Assembly: GCF_947077775.1 (NCBI RefSeq)
Contig: NZ_CAMTTE010000001.1
Span: 3,500,501-3,564,500 of the forward strand
Length of the DNA: 64,000 nucleotides
Origin: Salinibacter pepae
GTDB taxonomy: Bacteria; Bacteroidota; Rhodothermia; Rhodothermales; Salinibacteraceae
Reading direction: 5' to 3'
Shown here: positions 35,655-42,782 of the stretch, in pieces
How positions within the stretch are numbered: position 1 is the stretch's first letter
Layout of the letters: every line of letters begins with the position of its first letter
Position numbers and translations under genes: made by a program
Notes under the pieces: model-generated
Told to the model about the DNA's origin: nothing
The model's database searches: none
The model's input: only the letters and a program-made list of their open reading frames with translations

Positions 35655-38198
35655 TCAATCTCCCTGTAGGGCCACCGCCGGGTTTGACCGCGCCATGCGC
35701 CACGTCGGGTAGAGGCCCGCCAGGAACGCGGCCACGACCGCCAGCACGAGCGACTGGACCAGGACGTCGGTCGGCACTGTGAGCTGGAGCGTCCACCCGA
35801 AGGAGCGCTTGTTGATGACGAAGACCAGCACGTAGGCCAGCACGTAGCCGAGCGGCAGCGACAGGAGGCCGGCGATGGCGCCCATCAGGCTCGATTGGAG
35901 CGTCAGGTAGCCGCCCACCTGGGGGGGCGTCATCCCGGTGGCCCGCAGCACGCCCATCTCCCGTCGCCGTTCCAGGGCCAGGGCCATGAGGGCCGTGAGC
36001 ACCCCGATGAACGCTACGGCAATGGCGAGCAGGCGCAGGACCGTCGTGATGGTAAATGTGCGGTCGAAGACGCGCATCGACGTCTCGCGCAGGGCCCGGT
36101 TTGACCGGATGAGCACGTCCTGGAGCCCCGCCACGGAGGCGCGCATGTCCGCAATGAGGGCGTCGACGGAGGTCGTGTCGGCGGCCGCAAACGCCAGGCC
36201 GGACACGCCGCGGTCCTCGTAAAACTGCTCGTAGGTCGACCGGCTCATGAGGGCCACCCCGAGGTCGGAGCCGTAGTCGTAGTAGACCCCTTCGACGGCA
36301 AATGGCTGCTGGCCCCGATCCGTCTGGAGGCGCAGCGTGTCGCCCACGCCCACGTCATAGCGGTAGCTGTAGGGCTCGGAGACGAGCACGGAGGGCCCCG
36401 ACCGAACCGCCTCCCACGCCGTCTCGGGAGTGCCGGCCTTAAGCTGGTAGATGTCGGCGGTCTCGGGGCCGGGCTCCACGGCCACGAGGTCCGTGCGCCC
36501 CACGTCGGCCCGTACGGTGACGCGACGGACCGAGTAGGCCCCTTCGACGCCCGCAACGTTCCGCAGGCGACGCGCGACGGTGGAGTCGATCGTGGCGGTG
36601 GAGCGGCGGAAGACGAGGCTCGGCGGCTGCACGTAGACGTCGGCCTGCAGCGACTGCTCCAGCCAGCTGGTGACGGTGCCGCGGAAGCTGTCGATCATCA
36701 CGCCCACGCCCACGGTCGACGCGATGGCGATCGTGAGGGCGGCGATCGCGACGCCGGCGCGGCTCAGGTTCGTGACGACGCCGCGGGCCGCCATGCGCCC
36801 GATGACGCCGGCCGCCCGCCCGAGCAGGGGGCGCGCCCCGTTCGACAGCCCCACCACGGCCCACGGAATCATGAAGGCCGCCCCGACGAGAAGACAGAAC
36901 AGCGCCCCGTACCCGGCCCAGATGCTCTGTTCGGTGACGAGGAGCAGGAGGCTGCCGGCCGCGGCGACGAGGAGGCCGAACCCGGCCCACCCGGGCGCCC
37001 GCCGGCGCAGGGTGCTCTCTCGGGTCGACCGGCGCAGCACGGTGCTCACCGAGGCGGCGGTGGCCTCCTGGGCCGGGGGCAGGGCTGCGGCCAGCGTGGT
37101 GCCGACCCCCAAGAGGGCGCCTTTCGTCAGCGTCCACGCCGGGACCGACAGCTCGCTCACCTCCACCACGAAATAGAGGTCGTTGATGGTCTGCGCCAGG
37201 AGCTGCACCAGGCCGGACGCCAGCACGATGCCGAGCAAAAGCCCAATCCCGCTGCCCACCAGGCCCAGCACGGCGGCCTCCCCCACCACGAGCCGAAAGA
37301 CCTCCCCGCGCGTCACGCCCAAGGCCCGCAGCCGGCCAATCAGGGCGCGGCGCTGGACGACCGAAAAGGTCATCGTGTTGTAGATGAGAAACGCGCCCAC
37401 GATGAGGGCCAGCAGGCTGAGCGCCGTCAGGTTGAGGTCGAACGCCTTCGTCATTTGGGCCACGGTCTCCGTCCGGGTGTCCGAGCGCCGCAGTTGGGCC
37501 CCGTCCGGAAGGGATTCGCGCACCCGACGGAGGTAGGCCTCCCGGGCCGACGCCGCCGAGGGGGTAAGCAGGTCGATCCGGCTCAGCTGGCCGGCCTGGT
37601 CGAAAAGCTGCTGGGCCGTCGATACGTCCACGACCAGCAGGTTGGCCACCGCCCGGCGCGTCCGTTCGTTCTGCGGCGAGATCAGCCCGCTGAGCACCAC
37701 CGGGTGGGTCGTGCCCTCGATCCCCACGCGCAGGGTGTCGCCGGAGGAGAGCCCAATCGCCTCGGCGGTGGGGGCACTCATGAGGGCTGCGTCGTCCGTC
37801 ATGAAGGTCCCGAGGTCCAGGTCGCTGCCGGCCCCGGTGCCCAGGTAGGGCCGGAAGGGCGCGTCGGCCAGGGGATCGATCCCCACCACCTGGAATGTGC
37901 GGTCCCCTCGTTCGAGGGAGCCGTAGCCCTCCACGATGGGGGCGGACGGGCGAATGCCGGCCGCCCGGAGGCGCCGGTACACGTCGTCGTCGAGCGCCCC
38001 GCCGGCCCCCACGACCTGGTGCGTCGCGGCGCCGGTGACGGTCTCGGCGGACAGCTCAAACGCCCGGCTCGCGCTCGTATTGGCGAGGTCGATCGCCACC
38101 ACCACGGCCACCCCGATCGCCACCCCCAGTACCGACAGGCCCATGAGCCACGGGTGGCGGGTCAGGTAGCGCCGGCTGGAGCGATGCAGAAGTGTCAT
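35655..38198 (-). CDS. Large two-domain FtsX-like ABC permease
   Basis: 847 residues. Layout: an N-terminal helix (LMGLSVLGVAIGVAVVVAI), a periplasmic MacB-like domain (about residues 45-245), three helices with LIVGAFLIYNTMTFSVVQRR, further helices to about residue 480, a second periplasmic domain, and a final FtsX module ending VLAVVAAFLAGLYPTWRMA and SNPAVALQGD. This is the two-FtsX arrangement seen when both permease halves of AttF/AttG or LolC/LolE-type systems are fused. It probably handles an envelope lipid or lipoprotein, not a small solute. The partner ATPase gene begins 95 bases upstream. Confidence 0.9.
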   Translation of the reverse strand: MTLLHRSSRRYLTRHPWLMGLSVLGVAIGVAVVVAIDLANTSASRAFELSAETVTGAATHQVVGAGGALDDDVYRRLRAAGIRPSAPIVEGYGSLERGDRTFQVVGIDPLADAPFRPYLGTGAGSDLDLGTFMTDDAALMSAPTAEAIGLSSGDTLRVGIEGTTHPVVLSGLISPQNERTRRAVANLLVVDVSTAQQLFDQAGQLSRIDLLTPSAASAREAYLRRVRESLPDGAQLRRSDTRTETVAQMTKAFDLNLTALSLLALIVGAFLIYNTMTFSVVQRRALIGRLRALGVTRGEVFRLVVGEAAVLGLVGSGIGLLLGIVLASGLVQLLAQTINDLYFVVEVSELSVPAWTLTKGALLGVGTTLAAALPPAQEATAASVSTVLRRSTRESTLRRRAPGWAGFGLLVAAAGSLLLLVTEQSIWAGYGALFCLLVGAAFMIPWAVVGLSNGARPLLGRAAGVIGRMAARGVVTNLSRAGVAIAALTIAIASTVGVGVMIDSFRGTVTSWLEQSLQADVYVQPPSLVFRRSTATIDSTVARRLRNVAGVEGAYSVRRVTVRADVGRTDLVAVEPGPETADIYQLKAGTPETAWEAVRSGPSVLVSEPYSYRYDVGVGDTLRLQTDRGQQPFAVEGVYYDYGSDLGVALMSRSTYEQFYEDRGVSGLAFAAADTTSVDALIADMRASVAGLQDVLIRSNRALRETSMRVFDRTFTITTVLRLLAIAVAFIGVLTALMALALERRREMGVLRATGMTPPQVGGYLTLQSSLMGAIAGLLSLPLGYVLAYVLVFVINKRSFGWTLQLTVPTDVLVQSLVLAVVAAFLAGLYPTWRMARSNPAVALQGD

Positions 38199-38292
38199 CG
38201 AGGAGCGAACGGGACGGGTGAGAGAGACAGGGACGAGCGCGGCGCCCTGGGCGGCGCCACGGCGCTTCGTTCACGAATCGCCTGTGTGTGGG

Positions 38293-39009
38293 CTACGTCC
38301 CCGACGTGATGTATTCGGGCACCTCTTCGTGCAGGGATCCGCCGTGGAGGTGCAGGACCCGATCGGCCCGGGGAACCACCTCCGGGTCGTGCGTGGCCAC
38401 GAGGAGGGTGGTATCGGTATCGACCACGAGGTCGCTGAGGAGGGTGAGCACCGCCTGCCCGGTGTCGTAGTCCAGGTTGCCCGTCGGTTCGTCGGCGAGA
38501 ACGAGGAGGGGCTCGTGGGCCAGGGCCCGGGCGACGGCCACCCGCTGCTGCTCCCCGCCGGAGAGGCGGTCGGGGAACTGGTCGGCCCGGTCGGCCAGCC
38601 CGACCCGGTCCAGCATCGCACGGGCCCGGTCTTTCGTGGCCCGGGGCGCCCTGCCGGCCAGCTCAAGGGGCAGCCGCACGTTCTCCCCAACCGTCAGGGT
38701 CGAGATCAGGTTGAACGACTGAAACACAAACCCCACGTGAGAGCGGCGAAAGCGAGTGCGTTCCGTCTCGGACTTGCCGGTGAGGTCGGTGTCCCCGATC
38801 CGGACGCGGCCGGAGGTGGGCTGGTCAATGCCGCTGATCAGGTTGAGGAGCGTGCTCTTCCCGGCCCCGCTGCGTCCCATGAGGACCGAGAAGTCCCCCC
38901 GATTCAGTCGCAGTGAGACCTCCTGAAGCACCGCGCGCTCCTGATCGCCCTCCCGGTAGGTCTTTGTGAGGGCGTCGAGCTGGACGAGGGGCGACGAGGC
39001 GTCGGGCAT
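38293..39009 (-). CDS. LolD/MacB-type ABC transporter ATPase
   Basis: 238 residues with all ABC motifs: Walker [11 protein letters not shown]-loop VFQSFNLI, signature LSGGEQQR, Walker [13 protein letters not shown] and the H-loop VATHD. The EPTGNLD form marks the LolD/MacB/FtsE subfamily that works with FtsX-fold permeases. [14 protein letters not shown] fixes the start at 39009. It is the first gene of the minus-strand run ATPase, permease, antiporter, AttH-like protein. Confidence 0.93.
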
Positions 39010-39316
39010 ACTGGCGGGCGGCGGTCGGAATGGGGCTTGGCGGCAGGGACGAGACCCAAGTCCAAAAACCCAACGCCGAGGATGGAGGGGGCCGTTCCGA
39101 GGGGAGCGCCTCTCTCCAGAATCTTCGCGCCCGACCGCCAACGAGATGAAGTCCGAGGACCTGCGATCTCGACGTCTCCCCGTGAGAGGAGGGCCTGCCC
39201 TGGTGCTGTTCGGACCAGATCCAAGGATGCACGTGGGCGAGGCCCCCGCCCGGGCTCAGCCGAGCGGCATCGGGCAGAGCACCGACCTTGGGGCGCGCGG
39301 CGGCATTTCTTCATTC
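39010..39316. other. Intergenic region upstream of the ABC ATPase gene
   Basis: 307 bases after the stop of the outer-membrane barrel gene and before the ABC ATPase start, both on the minus strand. It should hold the promoter of the ABC cluster. No gene, clear terminator or repeat is visible. Confidence 0.35.
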
Positions 39317-40756
39317 TCAGAACCGGATTGTCGCCAACGAGAGGCTTACCGCGTAGCGTGCGCCGCTGCCGAGCGTCGAGGTGGAAGGGGTGATGCTCGC
39401 CCCCAGGTCGAACCGGTAGAATCCGAGGTCCAGCCCGAAGCCTCCGGAGAGGGCGACGGCCTGTGTGCCGGAGACCCGAGCGCCGGCGCGGATGGGGACG
39501 GGCCCGAGGTGGAGCGTCCCCCCCATATGGAGGGCCGCCGGACTGGGCACCGCCCCGGCGTCCTCGTTAAGCCCGATCGATGCGCCCCCGTTCAGGGTGA
39601 CGAGGCCCTGGTCCCAGGTGCTGTTCACGTGTAGCGTGGTGGGAAGGCCGGTAGCGAACGACGAGCGGTCGCGATTCACGTCCTCGTAGGCGGCATGAGC
39701 AAGACTGTCGACCTGGTCTTCGATGTACTCCCCCGTTGCGCCGTCGTACTCATCATCGATCCGATCCGAGTCCAGCGTCACGCCCTCAAACCGAAAGACA
39801 TCCTCCACGGGCGTCACCGTCTGGGCCTCCTGGCTCCAGCTGATCCGGCCCAGGTCCGTGATGCTCGCCGAGACGAGCAGCCCCGGCCGCACCGTGTAGG
39901 TGGCCCCGAGGTCGAGGCCGCCCCCGATCCCCGCGATCCCGGACGACCCCCCCACGACTTCGTCCACCGGGTCGTCGTTGAAGGCGTTGAACGTGTCGAA
40001 CAGGCCGGTGCTCAACGGGCCCGCCGCCCGGGCCGTGTAGTCGAATCGGTGCACCAGGGAGTCGCCGCTCACGGTCGCCTGCGAGTTGAGGGCGGCGTCC
40101 GCGAAGGCCGTCCCGAAAATCACGCGGGGCGAGACGCCCACCGACAGGGGCACCGACGAAAACCGGTAGCTGAAGGCCCCGGTGACGTCGACGGTCGCGT
40201 ACGCTCGGCTGCGCCCGTCGACCGGTACGGTGCGTTCCTCCCCCGTCCCTCGGAGCAGCACGTCAAACAGGCCCTTGTTCATCGCGGAGGTCTGAACGGT
40301 GCGGCCCCGAATGCCGAAGCCGACCGCCCAGGAGCGGTCGCTCGGGCGATGGGTGATCGACAACGGGACCACCTCCAGGTACGTGCTTGCCGTTTGCTGG
40401 TCCCCCCCGAACCAGTCGTCGAGGATGGCCTTCTGCTCGTCGTTCGGGAGGGCCTTTTCGTTGTTGTAGAAGAGGGGGTCGATGTGCTCGAACTGGTAGA
40501 AGTCGCCCCCGTGGTAGGCCCCCACCCGAAGCAGCTGAATCTCGAGGGAAGGGTCGGTCGGCCCGACCGTCAGGTTGGCCGGATTGGAGTAGAGCGCGGC
40601 CGGGCCCGTATCGAAGACGGACGTGCCCCCGCCGGTGCTCACGGCCGTCACGCTGCGCATGCCGGACTGGCCGTGAACGGATTCGGGCGCCAGGGCCAGA
40701 AGGCCCGAGAGGAAAAGAACAAGGGCCGAGCGGAAGACAAAGGCGTGGGGCGTCAT
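39317..40756 (-). CDS. Outer-membrane beta-barrel protein, DUF5723/OmpP1-like
   Basis: 479 residues. A signal peptide (FRSALVLFLSGLLALAPESVHG) is followed by RSVTAVSTGGGTSVFDTGPAALYSNPANL, the N-terminal loop found in FadL/OmpP1/PorV-like barrels. Alternating polar and hydrophobic strands fill the rest, with GLLVSASITDLGRISWS and a final strand ending LATIRF, an aromatic C-terminus suited to BAM insertion. The length and the Tyr/Asn-Pro-Ala pattern resemble DUF5723 proteins of Bacteroidota. It follows the large lipoprotein gene by 67 bases on the same strand, so they are probably an operon. Confidence 0.7.
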   Translation of the reverse strand: MTPHAFVFRSALVLFLSGLLALAPESVHGQSGMRSVTAVSTGGGTSVFDTGPAALYSNPANLTVGPTDPSLEIQLLRVGAYHGGDFYQFEHIDPLFYNNEKALPNDEQKAILDDWFGGDQQTASTYLEVVPLSITHRPSDRSWAVGFGIRGRTVQTSAMNKGLFDVLLRGTGEERTVPVDGRSRAYATVDVTGAFSYRFSSVPLSVGVSPRVIFGTAFADAALNSQATVSGDSLVHRFDYTARAAGPLSTGLFDTFNAFNDDPVDEVVGGSSGIAGIGGGLDLGATYTVRPGLLVSASITDLGRISWSQEAQTVTPVEDVFRFEGVTLDSDRIDDEYDGATGEYIEDQVDSLAHAAYEDVNRDRSSFATGLPTTLHVNSTWDQGLVTLNGGASIGLNEDAGAVPSPAALHMGGTLHLGPVPIRAGARVSGTQAVALSGGFGLDLGFYRFDLGASITPSTSTLGSGARYAVSLSLATIRF

Positions 40757-40823
40757 CGGTCCAACCTGCTGTGTCGGGAAAGAGAGGTGCCGGGGGGGGC
40801 GGTCGCGTCGAGGCCTCTGGGGC

Positions 40824-42782
40824 TTAGTTGCCGGTTTGAACGGAGGCGTCGGCCTCGAGACGGACGCGGTTGAGGATCAGCTGGTCGTCGGCCCGGAGGC
40901 GAGCGACGGCCGACGTGCCCCCTCCCGATCCCGCCTGATCCATGTTGAGGGCGAGCCGAATTTCATCGCCGTCGGCCAGCGCTCGCAGGTCCTCCTGGGT
41001 ACTGCCGAGGGGGAAGACGAATGTGCCCGATGACGGAGCCGCTGCCGCGCCGTCGTCGTCCTTCGCGGCCGGCTCAATTCGGAAGTTGTCGTTTTCGAAG
41101 TCGCCGTTGAACGTCTCAATTGCCGAGCCCGCGGCGTCGACAATGACCATCCTCACGTCTGCCCCGAGGGGCAGGCCGTTCGTATATTCGAACTGCAGCT
41201 CCGCCGTCGAAATGTTCACGTCCTCCTCCGGGTCGGTCAGGTCGTTGAGGTCGGACAGGTCCGCATCGATGGTGTCCCGCACGCGGAACCGATCCTTGAT
41301 GCGGAGGGGGACGTTGAGCGAGAACTTCGCGTCCAGCGAGATGGGTGTTCGGACGCTCAGGCCGCCCTCGTCCGTGTTGATCCGGGCCTGCCCGGCCAGG
41401 CGGACCTCCGTCGGGAGGGCGTTGACGAAGTCCGCCACGTTTGAATTGTCTCCATCCACCACGAGCGGCGTTCGCACCGTTTCGCCCAGGGACGCATCCT
41501 CAAGCCCAACGCCCAGCTTGATCAGCTCCTCATTCGGAAGGGTAGAGCCGTTTTCCGTAAACGCAGAAAAGGGTGAGGGCAGGGAGGACACGTTCCGGTC
41601 CGCCCCGCGCGACGCGTCCTGATCTTCCGTTCCGCCAAGATAGATCTGGTCTGTCTCGTTCGTCCCCTGAATCGCCGCATACAACTGGGCGTCCGTCGAC
41701 GCGAGGTTGGCGGTTTCAACCTGGAAGGTTAGGCTCACGTCCGCCAGCTCGAGCCCGTCCACGCGTCCCGTGATGCCCCCAAAGCCATCGAAGGCCGCCG
41801 TCCGCACTTCGCTGTCGTCGGCAACATCAACGGCTCCCCCGTCTTCATTCGGCGTGACGGCCACCGTGAACGGCCTCGCCGCACCGACATCGATCTCCTG
41901 AATCTCAAAATTGTCGAGGGCGGTCGACGCCCCGAAGGAGATCTTGTCGTCGTTTTCCACTCTCAGGTCGGGGTTCACTTGGCCGTCAATCTCAAACGTG
42001 ACCGTCCCGTCTTCGTCGATCTTCGGCTTGTTCGGGTACACGCGCGTGCCCTCCGGACCAATGCGAAACCCACTTCTCAGGTCGTTTATGTCCCGTTCGT
42101 ATTTGCCACTGGGATTTTCGACAAAGCTGACGACGAGCTGGTCGTCTTCGCCGTACGGCTCAACTCGAATGTCGGGATATACGAACCGAAGCTCATCGAA
42201 CACACGCTCCTGGGCGGTCGGGGAAACCGTGATGTCTTGCCCCCTAATCTCCGTGCTTCCGAGCTCCACGTAGTTGTCCTGCGCCTTGTCGAACGCGACC
42301 CGGTCGCTTCCACGTACCGGGATAGTGGCCGTTGCCGATCTCTGTAGCTCCTCTTCGGTGAGATAGTCCCCGATCCGCTGTTCTCCCGAGGACGGAATTC
42401 CTTCCTCTTGCAAATCAATGAGGTCCCGTTTGAAGCTCTTCTGGGCGAAGGTGAGGGCCCCGGTCGCGTTGTCGAGGGCGCCGTTCAGGTTCCCGATGTC
42501 GAAGTTGTCGATTGTCTGCACGACCGAGATGTCGTTGTTCGCCGCCTCCACTTCGAACAGGGCGTCGAAGTCCGACGAGGTGGTGTCGATCAGCGGGTCG
42601 AATTCACTGTTCGGCCCCCCGAGAAACGTGAAGGTTTTTTCCTGTACGAGCGGCGTGCTGACCTCCGTGTCGGTGTTGAGGGATGGCGAGGAATTGCCCG
42701 TGGGCACGTCGCACCCCATCAGAGTGACGAACGTGAGTGCGGCCGCTGTGAGGGGCCACCAGCTAGCCTGAGAAGAAGACAT
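40824..42782 (-). CDS. Large exported lipoprotein of unknown function
   Basis: 652 residues. The start at 42782 gives MSSSQASWWPLTAAALTFVT followed by a lipobox LMGC, so the protein is lipidated at Cys near residue 24. The mature chain is highly acidic and made of many short predicted strands (for example KISFGASTALDNFEIQEIDV, SLTFQVETANLAST), suggesting repeated beta domains; an acidic DDDGAAAAP linker occurs near the C-terminus. No known family recognised. The upstream in-frame extension to 42974 has no lipoprotein logic. Its pairing with the downstream barrel points to a joint role at the outer membrane. Confidence 0.75.
   Translation of the reverse strand: MSSSQASWWPLTAAALTFVTLMGCDVPTGNSSPSLNTDTEVSTPLVQEKTFTFLGGPNSEFDPLIDTTSSDFDALFEVEAANNDISVVQTIDNFDIGNLNGALDNATGALTFAQKSFKRDLIDLQEEGIPSSGEQRIGDYLTEEELQRSATATIPVRGSDRVAFDKAQDNYVELGSTEIRGQDITVSPTAQERVFDELRFVYPDIRVEPYGEDDQLVVSFVENPSGKYERDINDLRSGFRIGPEGTRVYPNKPKIDEDGTVTFEIDGQVNPDLRVENDDKISFGASTALDNFEIQEIDVGAARPFTVAVTPNEDGGAVDVADDSEVRTAAFDGFGGITGRVDGLELADVSLTFQVETANLASTDAQLYAAIQGTNETDQIYLGGTEDQDASRGADRNVSSLPSPFSAFTENGSTLPNEELIKLGVGLEDASLGETVRTPLVVDGDNSNVADFVNALPTEVRLAGQARINTDEGGLSVRTPISLDAKFSLNVPLRIKDRFRVRDTIDADLSDLNDLTDPEEDVNISTAELQFEYTNGLPLGADVRMVIVDAAGSAIETFNGDFENDNFRIEPAAKDDDGAAAAPSSGTFVFPLGSTQEDLRALADGDEIRLALNMDQAGSGGGTSAVARLRADDQLILNRVRLEADASVQTGN

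Follow-up and report, generated by a model that had tools for sequence, protein, structure and literature searches.

The window analysed here is a stretch of 64,000 nucleotides from Salinibacter pepae (NZ_CAMTTE010000001.1, positions 3,500,501 to 3,564,500 of the forward strand). Its minus strand carries a gene for a large lipoprotein followed by a gene for an outer-membrane barrel of the DUF5723 family. It had been proposed from the DNA letters that a 652-residue lipoprotein stands 67 bases ahead of a DUF5723 barrel and that the two form a surface system; both open frames are found at these places. The gap between them holds no terminator-like or promoter-like site (the scan gave fewer sites than shuffled sequence did), and the genome has one above-threshold match each for the lipoprotein and for the barrel. 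The features of the locus are as follows.

40824..42782, minus strand: lipoprotein gene, 652 aa, an open frame without a Pfam or NCBIfam family, whose homologues occur phylum-wide, mostly beside DUF5723 barrels
42714..42782, minus strand: signal peptide, residues 1-23, with LMG before the lipidated Cys24, read from the sequence and the conservation of the Cys
42453..42713, minus strand: lipid-proximal tail, residues 24-110, including the best-conserved 50-residue stretch (27-76), delimited by conservation and a C..P..P motif
42336..42452, minus strand: site, residues ~111-149, of ~300 aa absent in the window's group, from an alignment of 19 relatives
40842..41909, minus strand: region matching the structure 4H3W, residues 292-647, from a fold match of the model and a profile match
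40827..41285, minus strand: predicted C-terminal beta module, residues ~500-652, the sole module matched in one short flavobacterial form
40757..40823, no strand: 67-bp intergenic gap between the lipoprotein and barrel genes
39317..40756, minus strand: DUF5723 outer-membrane barrel, 479 aa, with a predicted FadL-superfamily fold, from a Pfam match and a model
40577..40585, minus strand: NPA motif of the FadL superfamily, barrel residues 58-60, invariant in 20/20 aligned barrels

Joint retention of the two genes

The two genes are inherited together. In a set of 60 related genomes, the own genome included, the lipoprotein and the barrel are each present in 20; 19 genomes hold both and 39 neither. 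This both-or-neither pattern covers 58 of the 60, and in the two exceptions (G048 and G041) the gene lies at a contig end. Wherever both genes occur among the relatives they are adjacent on one strand with the lipoprotein first (19/19).

A draw of 296 genomes from the whole phylum was searched with profiles. The first lipoprotein profile (A1) matches in 75 of them and the barrel profile (A2) in 150. A profile of 27 distant lipoproteins that was built without the window's class (A9) matches in 100, and it finds the window protein itself at E 6e-23. Among these 100 genomes a DUF5723 barrel stands beside the lipoprotein in 91 and elsewhere in the genome in the other nine. In 80 the barrel lies downstream, at most 3.5 kb away on the same strand, in one the order is reversed (G186), and ten further adjacencies were recognised by reading the locus (G089, G148, G290, G294, G160, G318, G226, G225, G091 and a second copy in G099). 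Where adjacency was scored from positions, it means a shared contig and strand and a distance of at most 3.5 kb, with some barrel positions taken from a search with the Pfam model; the barrel of G225 was missed by A2, yet it matches DUF5723 at E 9e-55. Six of the nine unlinked genomes belong to one family (G132, G176, G183, G277, G311, G327) and two to another (G063, G139), and the last is G319. A lipoprotein or barrel locus was read in G176, G132, G183, G139 and G063, and the other four were judged from contig positions alone, some of these assemblies being fragmented. A profile of 54 C-terminal regions of the lipoprotein (A10) matches in 121 of 394 genomes.

The pairing is far beyond chance. 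Fisher's test gives 9e-35 for the phylum draw (97/3/53/143) and 2e-13 for the relatives (19/1/1/39), values which are not real probabilities because the genomes are related. The neighbours vary while the pair persists: when the genes of 101 fetched stretches, all picked for holding one of the two genes, were clustered by BLAST, the barrel was seen in 86 stretches and the lipoprotein in 73; the most widespread neighbour cluster after them was seen in 20. Among 64 pairs, searched for spacings of -60 to 300 bp, the genes overlap in 15, and no gap exceeds 109 bp. Gene maps were made from mechanical open frames, and overlapping frames cost one locus its barrel (L052) and another its lipoprotein (L057).

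Downstream of the pair, on the same strand (window positions 35655-39141), lie an ABC (ATP-binding cassette) transporter ATPase and an 847-aa permease of the FtsX type, both labelled by sequence reading; in the order-level loci that were mapped, these two genes flank the pair only within the genus. Two pair-less genomes of the window's genus (G005 and G011) have a pyrB match, then ~264/181 bp, then the same ABC ATPase and permease matches, with no lipoprotein or barrel match between pyrB and the ABC genes and the site otherwise intact. G001 and G012 lack a pyrB match and are uninformative on the empty site.

As grounds for giving up a two-part system, the original prediction had named the occurrence of the genes apart in most relatives. 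Across the 60 relatives and the 296 genomes this did not occur, and with adjacency in 19/19 relatives and 91/100 genomes of the phylum draw a two-part system is strongly supported. The mostly joint retention across the phylum suggests an uncharacterised two-part envelope machine and not a chance neighbourhood.

Barrels without a partner exist as well. Of 20 barrel loci chosen because no A1 match adjoins them, 12 have a lipoprotein gene upstream and 8 do not, four of these eight being the second copy of a genome that has a pair too. A further 20 loci, out of 32 places found with the Pfam model, show a lipoprotein gene in 8 and none in 12. These proportions are not a frequency, since the choice of loci was biased toward solo barrels. 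In a quick tree of 92 barrels (71 paired rows, 20 solo rows) the state changes 6 times, against 18.3 times in shuffles, and paired rows stand on both sides of the midpoint root; the near-duplicates L061, L066, L119 and L154 were left out, as was L052, whose barrel was lost by the gene caller.

Four genomes (L145-L148) carry a solo second DUF5723 barrel in addition to a paired copy; it sits between two genes that presumably encode a UvrD-like helicase and a Lon-like protease. A record titled Calditrichaeota contains a solo DUF5723-like barrel (L135:5902-7173, tblastn E 2e-5), and the gene upstream of it we take to be adenosylhomocysteinase-like.

The barrel and its relatives in the FadL superfamily

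The barrel matches DUF5723 (PF18990) at E 3.5e-27 with 96.5 bits, the curated cut-off being 26.8, and a profile of 20 barrels has a match to TbuX (E 0.011) in the region of the NPA motif. An AlphaFold model on a five-sequence alignment has a predicted local distance difference test score (pLDDT) of 67 and a predicted template modelling score of 0.67. Foldseek ranks TodX and a FadL homologue on top, with BamG chains fourth and fifth. VIA-align gives Z 24.3 for CymD (316 aligned residues, root-mean-square deviation (rmsd) 4.5), 23.7 for E. coli FadL (309 residues aligned), 21.7 for a type IX translocon chain that we take to be PorV (266 aligned), 19.8, 19.4 and 18.8 for BamG chains, and 18.2 for OmpG, another type of barrel. 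At this model quality the protein shows a FadL-type barrel, an N-terminal hatch and the NPA motif, and as judged from sequence and model it is a member of the FadL/OmpP1 superfamily. The earlier assignment to an OmpP1-like class is borne out by the TbuX profile match and by the Foldseek and VIA-align matches.

The likeness to FadL, TodX and CymD concerns the barrel fold over ~300-335 aligned residues and the hatch with its NPA motif. However, identity is only ~11-16%, and the relatives of the window barrel mostly have a lipoprotein neighbour. PorV is also a FadL-superfamily barrel of the same phylum that binds another protein, but it serves many cargo proteins, whereas the window barrel has a one-to-one lipoprotein neighbour. 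No genes of a type IX secretion system were noticed beside the pair, where no search aimed at them was made.

A known parallel in design is the β-barrel assembly machinery (BAM) of Bacteroidota described in 2025, which contains the FadL-type barrel BamG and the surface lipoprotein BamH, the conserved lipidated tail of BamH sitting in a groove of BamG (PMC12611786 and PMC12578637). The window pair shares with BamG-BamH a FadL-superfamily barrel, a large lipoprotein with a conserved tail after the lipid and a phylum-wide spread, and BamG2 and BamH2 likewise form a putative operon in Bacteroides (PMC12578637). One could imagine on account of this common architecture that the window encodes a divergent BamG2-BamH2 pair which would dock on BamA as an alternative BAM module, but several differences make this very improbable. 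The N-terminus of BamG is ~10-12 residues longer than that of FadL and threads the lateral opening. In the window barrel 28 residues lead from Q30 to NPA58, where the BamG-like protein of the same genome has 40 (with predicted cleavage sites), and the ~12-residue extension is absent. The window barrel belongs to DUF5723 and BamG to Toluene_X, and the genome encodes Toluene_X barrels apart from it, including a BamG-like one. Universal presence in Bacteroidota is reported for BamG and BamH (PMC12611786), whereas the window pair is patchy, with neither gene in 39 of the 60 relatives; bamG and bamH also lie apart by their locus numbers, whereas window-type genes are mostly adjacent. Because of the DUF5723 membership, the missing extension and the BamG-like barrel elsewhere, the window barrel is not BamG itself, nor is the pair BamG-BamH. 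As to BamH, profile A1 has no PDB match at E<=10 and profiles A9 and A10 list 4H3W and not BamH, the model of the lipoprotein being poor; DUF4270, a family guessed for BamH, has no match in the own genome.

The BamG-like protein is a 534-aa Toluene_X barrel with the extended N-terminus QTADDAYRFSN... (L137:817-2421; own genome, C1 ~1,538,000), for which a PDB search returned nothing. It is probably the BamG of this organism, a label that we presume from its motif together with Toluene_X membership. A second FadL-type (Toluene_X) barrel of the same genome (L136:1141-4329; C1 ~715,000) is followed after 3 bp by a lipoprotein gene and forms another barrel-lipoprotein pair; this lipoprotein presumably resembles SGNH/GDSL hydrolases.

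That the best fold matches of the window barrel are the channels FadL, TodX and CymD points to our main rival explanation, a channel for the uptake of hydrophobic substrates in which a periplasm-facing lipoprotein would take over the substrate or gate the barrel. The invariant NPA motif and an N-terminal tail without the BamG-type extension are in line with it. However, FadL channels are not known to need a lipoprotein partner, and the lipoprotein shows no ligand-binding family. We regard uptake as rather unlikely.

Architecture of the lipoprotein

The lipobox of the lipoprotein reads LMG|C24. The Cys is invariant in 19/19 aligned relatives and has a counterpart in 27/27 distant homologues, which also carry a similar version of the C..P..P motif after the lipid. 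The protein is acidic as had been noted (mature isoelectric point 4.05, 119 D/E vs 47 K/R), but this says little in an apparent extreme halophile. Its description as a protein of no recognised family agrees with the empty searches of Pfam (no match above cut-off) and NCBIfam (no match at E<=1), and PDB searches with single proteins gave nothing useful, but the C-terminal half is remotely related to a solved structure.

This structure is 4H3W, the 330-aa protein BDI_1231 of Parabacteroides distasonis, annotated as a 'putative secreted protein'. Residues 292-647 of the lipoprotein model align with residues 68-349 of the 4H3W chain as the best match (Z 10.0, 260 aligned, rmsd 9.7), the runner-up having Z 6.6. 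The rows at Z <=6.6, many of them viral capsids, were taken as common beta-sandwich matches. Independently of the model, profile A9 finds 4H3W as its top PDB match at E 0.1, and for profile A10 it is the sole match at E<=10, with a whole-chain E of 4.4e-4 and the matched stretches running in the same order along the chain. By profile and model, which agree in register, the C-terminal ~350 aa of the lipoprotein share a predicted 4H3W-like fold and are remotely homologous to 4H3W, the only solved relative found for this region.

The lipoprotein is built of repeated modules. Profile-profile comparison joins X1 and X2 at 94.8%, X2 and X5 at 94.2% and X1 and X5 at 87.4%, and in an order-level alignment the insert Y2 resembles X1 at 98% and Y6 at 96%. 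Conservation peaks in the lipid-proximal tail (0.67 for residues 27-76, mean 0.54) and is next highest where the last module begins (0.64 for residues 491-540). The window protein is one of the shorter versions: in 13 of 19 aligned sequences, ~300 additional residues stand between the positions that correspond to ~111 and ~149 of the window protein, and the length differs by ~300 aa inside one genus. Such a change argues against a part that spans a fixed gap, and it would be odd for the fixed handover partner that an uptake channel would need.

A still smaller form occurs in G399, a genome of probable flavobacterial type, where a 181-aa lipoprotein lies 52 bp upstream of a DUF5723 gene. It matches the last module only (genome-wide E 4.7e-5, 24.7 bits), and the smallest form seen thus consists of a lipid anchor, a short stretch and the last module. 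We read the short stretch as the same tail that follows the lipid in the window protein. Three other short lipoproteins (L163, L165 and L166) have weak scores of 7.5, 7.0 and 3.4 bits, and only their position marks them as partners.

In Bacteroides, surface lipoproteins carry at least two acidic residues among the six after the Cys (PMC12578637). The window protein, with CDVPTGN, has one, and 25 of 64 lipoproteins follow the rule; in L060, L061, L066 and L102 the Cys was re-read by eye, and the rule fails at the right Cys too. The rule is not known to us to have been tested in this class. With the export rule followed in 25 of 64 cases and not by the window protein, the surface location that had been suggested is unsupported, and the periplasm-facing lipoprotein of the uptake explanation would fit this count.

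The original prediction had further suggested, as an example, that the insertion or display of the lipoprotein depends on the barrel, which would make the barrel a dedicated translocator that exports or displays its own lipoprotein. One barrel per lipoprotein, the lipoprotein gene first in nearly all pairs, and a modular lipoprotein of variable length would suit such a role. However, we know of no export role for FadL-type barrels, and some barrels stand alone with no lipoprotein gene next to them. The roles given to PorV, binding and shuttling, and to BamG, a subunit for docking (PMC12578637), likewise speak against translocation. A translocator is in our view improbable.

A possible two-part outer-membrane complex

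We lean slightly towards a stand-alone outer-membrane complex of two parts, with the barrel anchoring the lipoprotein and setting its position. It would be similar to BamG-BamH in design and formed by a separate protein family. The lipid would keep the lipoprotein in the outer membrane, and the conserved lipid-proximal tail and the C-terminal module may bind the barrel. The middle beta modules, which vary in number, could form a spacer or platform. The main role of the barrel would then be that of an anchor and partner, and less that of a plain channel.

Several observations weigh against this complex. The surface rule fails in 39/64 lipoproteins including that of the window, and kinship among the genomes inflates the pair counts. 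Solo barrels (20/92 in the tree sample) imply that the fold need not always have a partner. Only X1, X2 and X5 join (3/5), modules X3 and X4 resembling no others, and within the order-level alignment Y2-Y6 is the only resembling pair. The model of the lipoprotein, made from four sequences, is poor (mean pLDDT 42.7), and that of the barrel is of moderate quality (pLDDT 67). The best single stretch in the match of A10 to 4H3W has an E of 0.09, the lower value given above holding for the whole chain only.

A bolder form of the favoured complex, which we offer tentatively as a possibility, would make it a third kind of FadL-based outer-membrane machine beside BamG-BamH and PorV. The DUF5723 barrel and the 4H3W-type modular lipoprotein would form an obligate complex of adjustable reach, with 181 to >1,000 residues. 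It would date from early in the phylum and have been lost or gained as a unit.

The two-part system would add a family to the few barrels of the FadL superfamily known to act together with another protein (BamG, PorV). Two unnamed genes are joined into a single system that can be tested and that a major phylum has conserved, and the lipoprotein gains a solved structure as its first relative. With its 181-aa lipoprotein, the flavobacterial form hints at a minimal pair for study in a host amenable to genetics.

The pair had also been presented as not described before. In the literature searched, with most subscription papers and all preprints outside its coverage, no paper naming DUF5723 or BDI_1231 was found, nor one on an operon of a FadL-like barrel and a lipoprotein in Bacteroidetes, and for BamG with BamH nothing beyond PMC12611786 and PMC12578637. 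The claim agrees with these searches as far as this pair is concerned, but the general design has been known since 2025 from BamG-BamH (PMC12611786, PMC12578637). On FadL and lipoproteins in Salinibacter the same literature yielded one 2007 comparison of Bacteroidetes proteins.

Two further gene clusters recur near the pair. Cluster c2 comprises membrane proteins at 11 loci (L151, L153, L162, L173, L175 and others), encoded on the opposite strand where examined, and these presumably resemble LptF/LptG permeases. Cluster c4 is a small gene of ~104-133 aa that recurs upstream of the lipoprotein at 14 loci (among them L149, L150, L153, L157 and L175) and that we take to be DUF3467-like.

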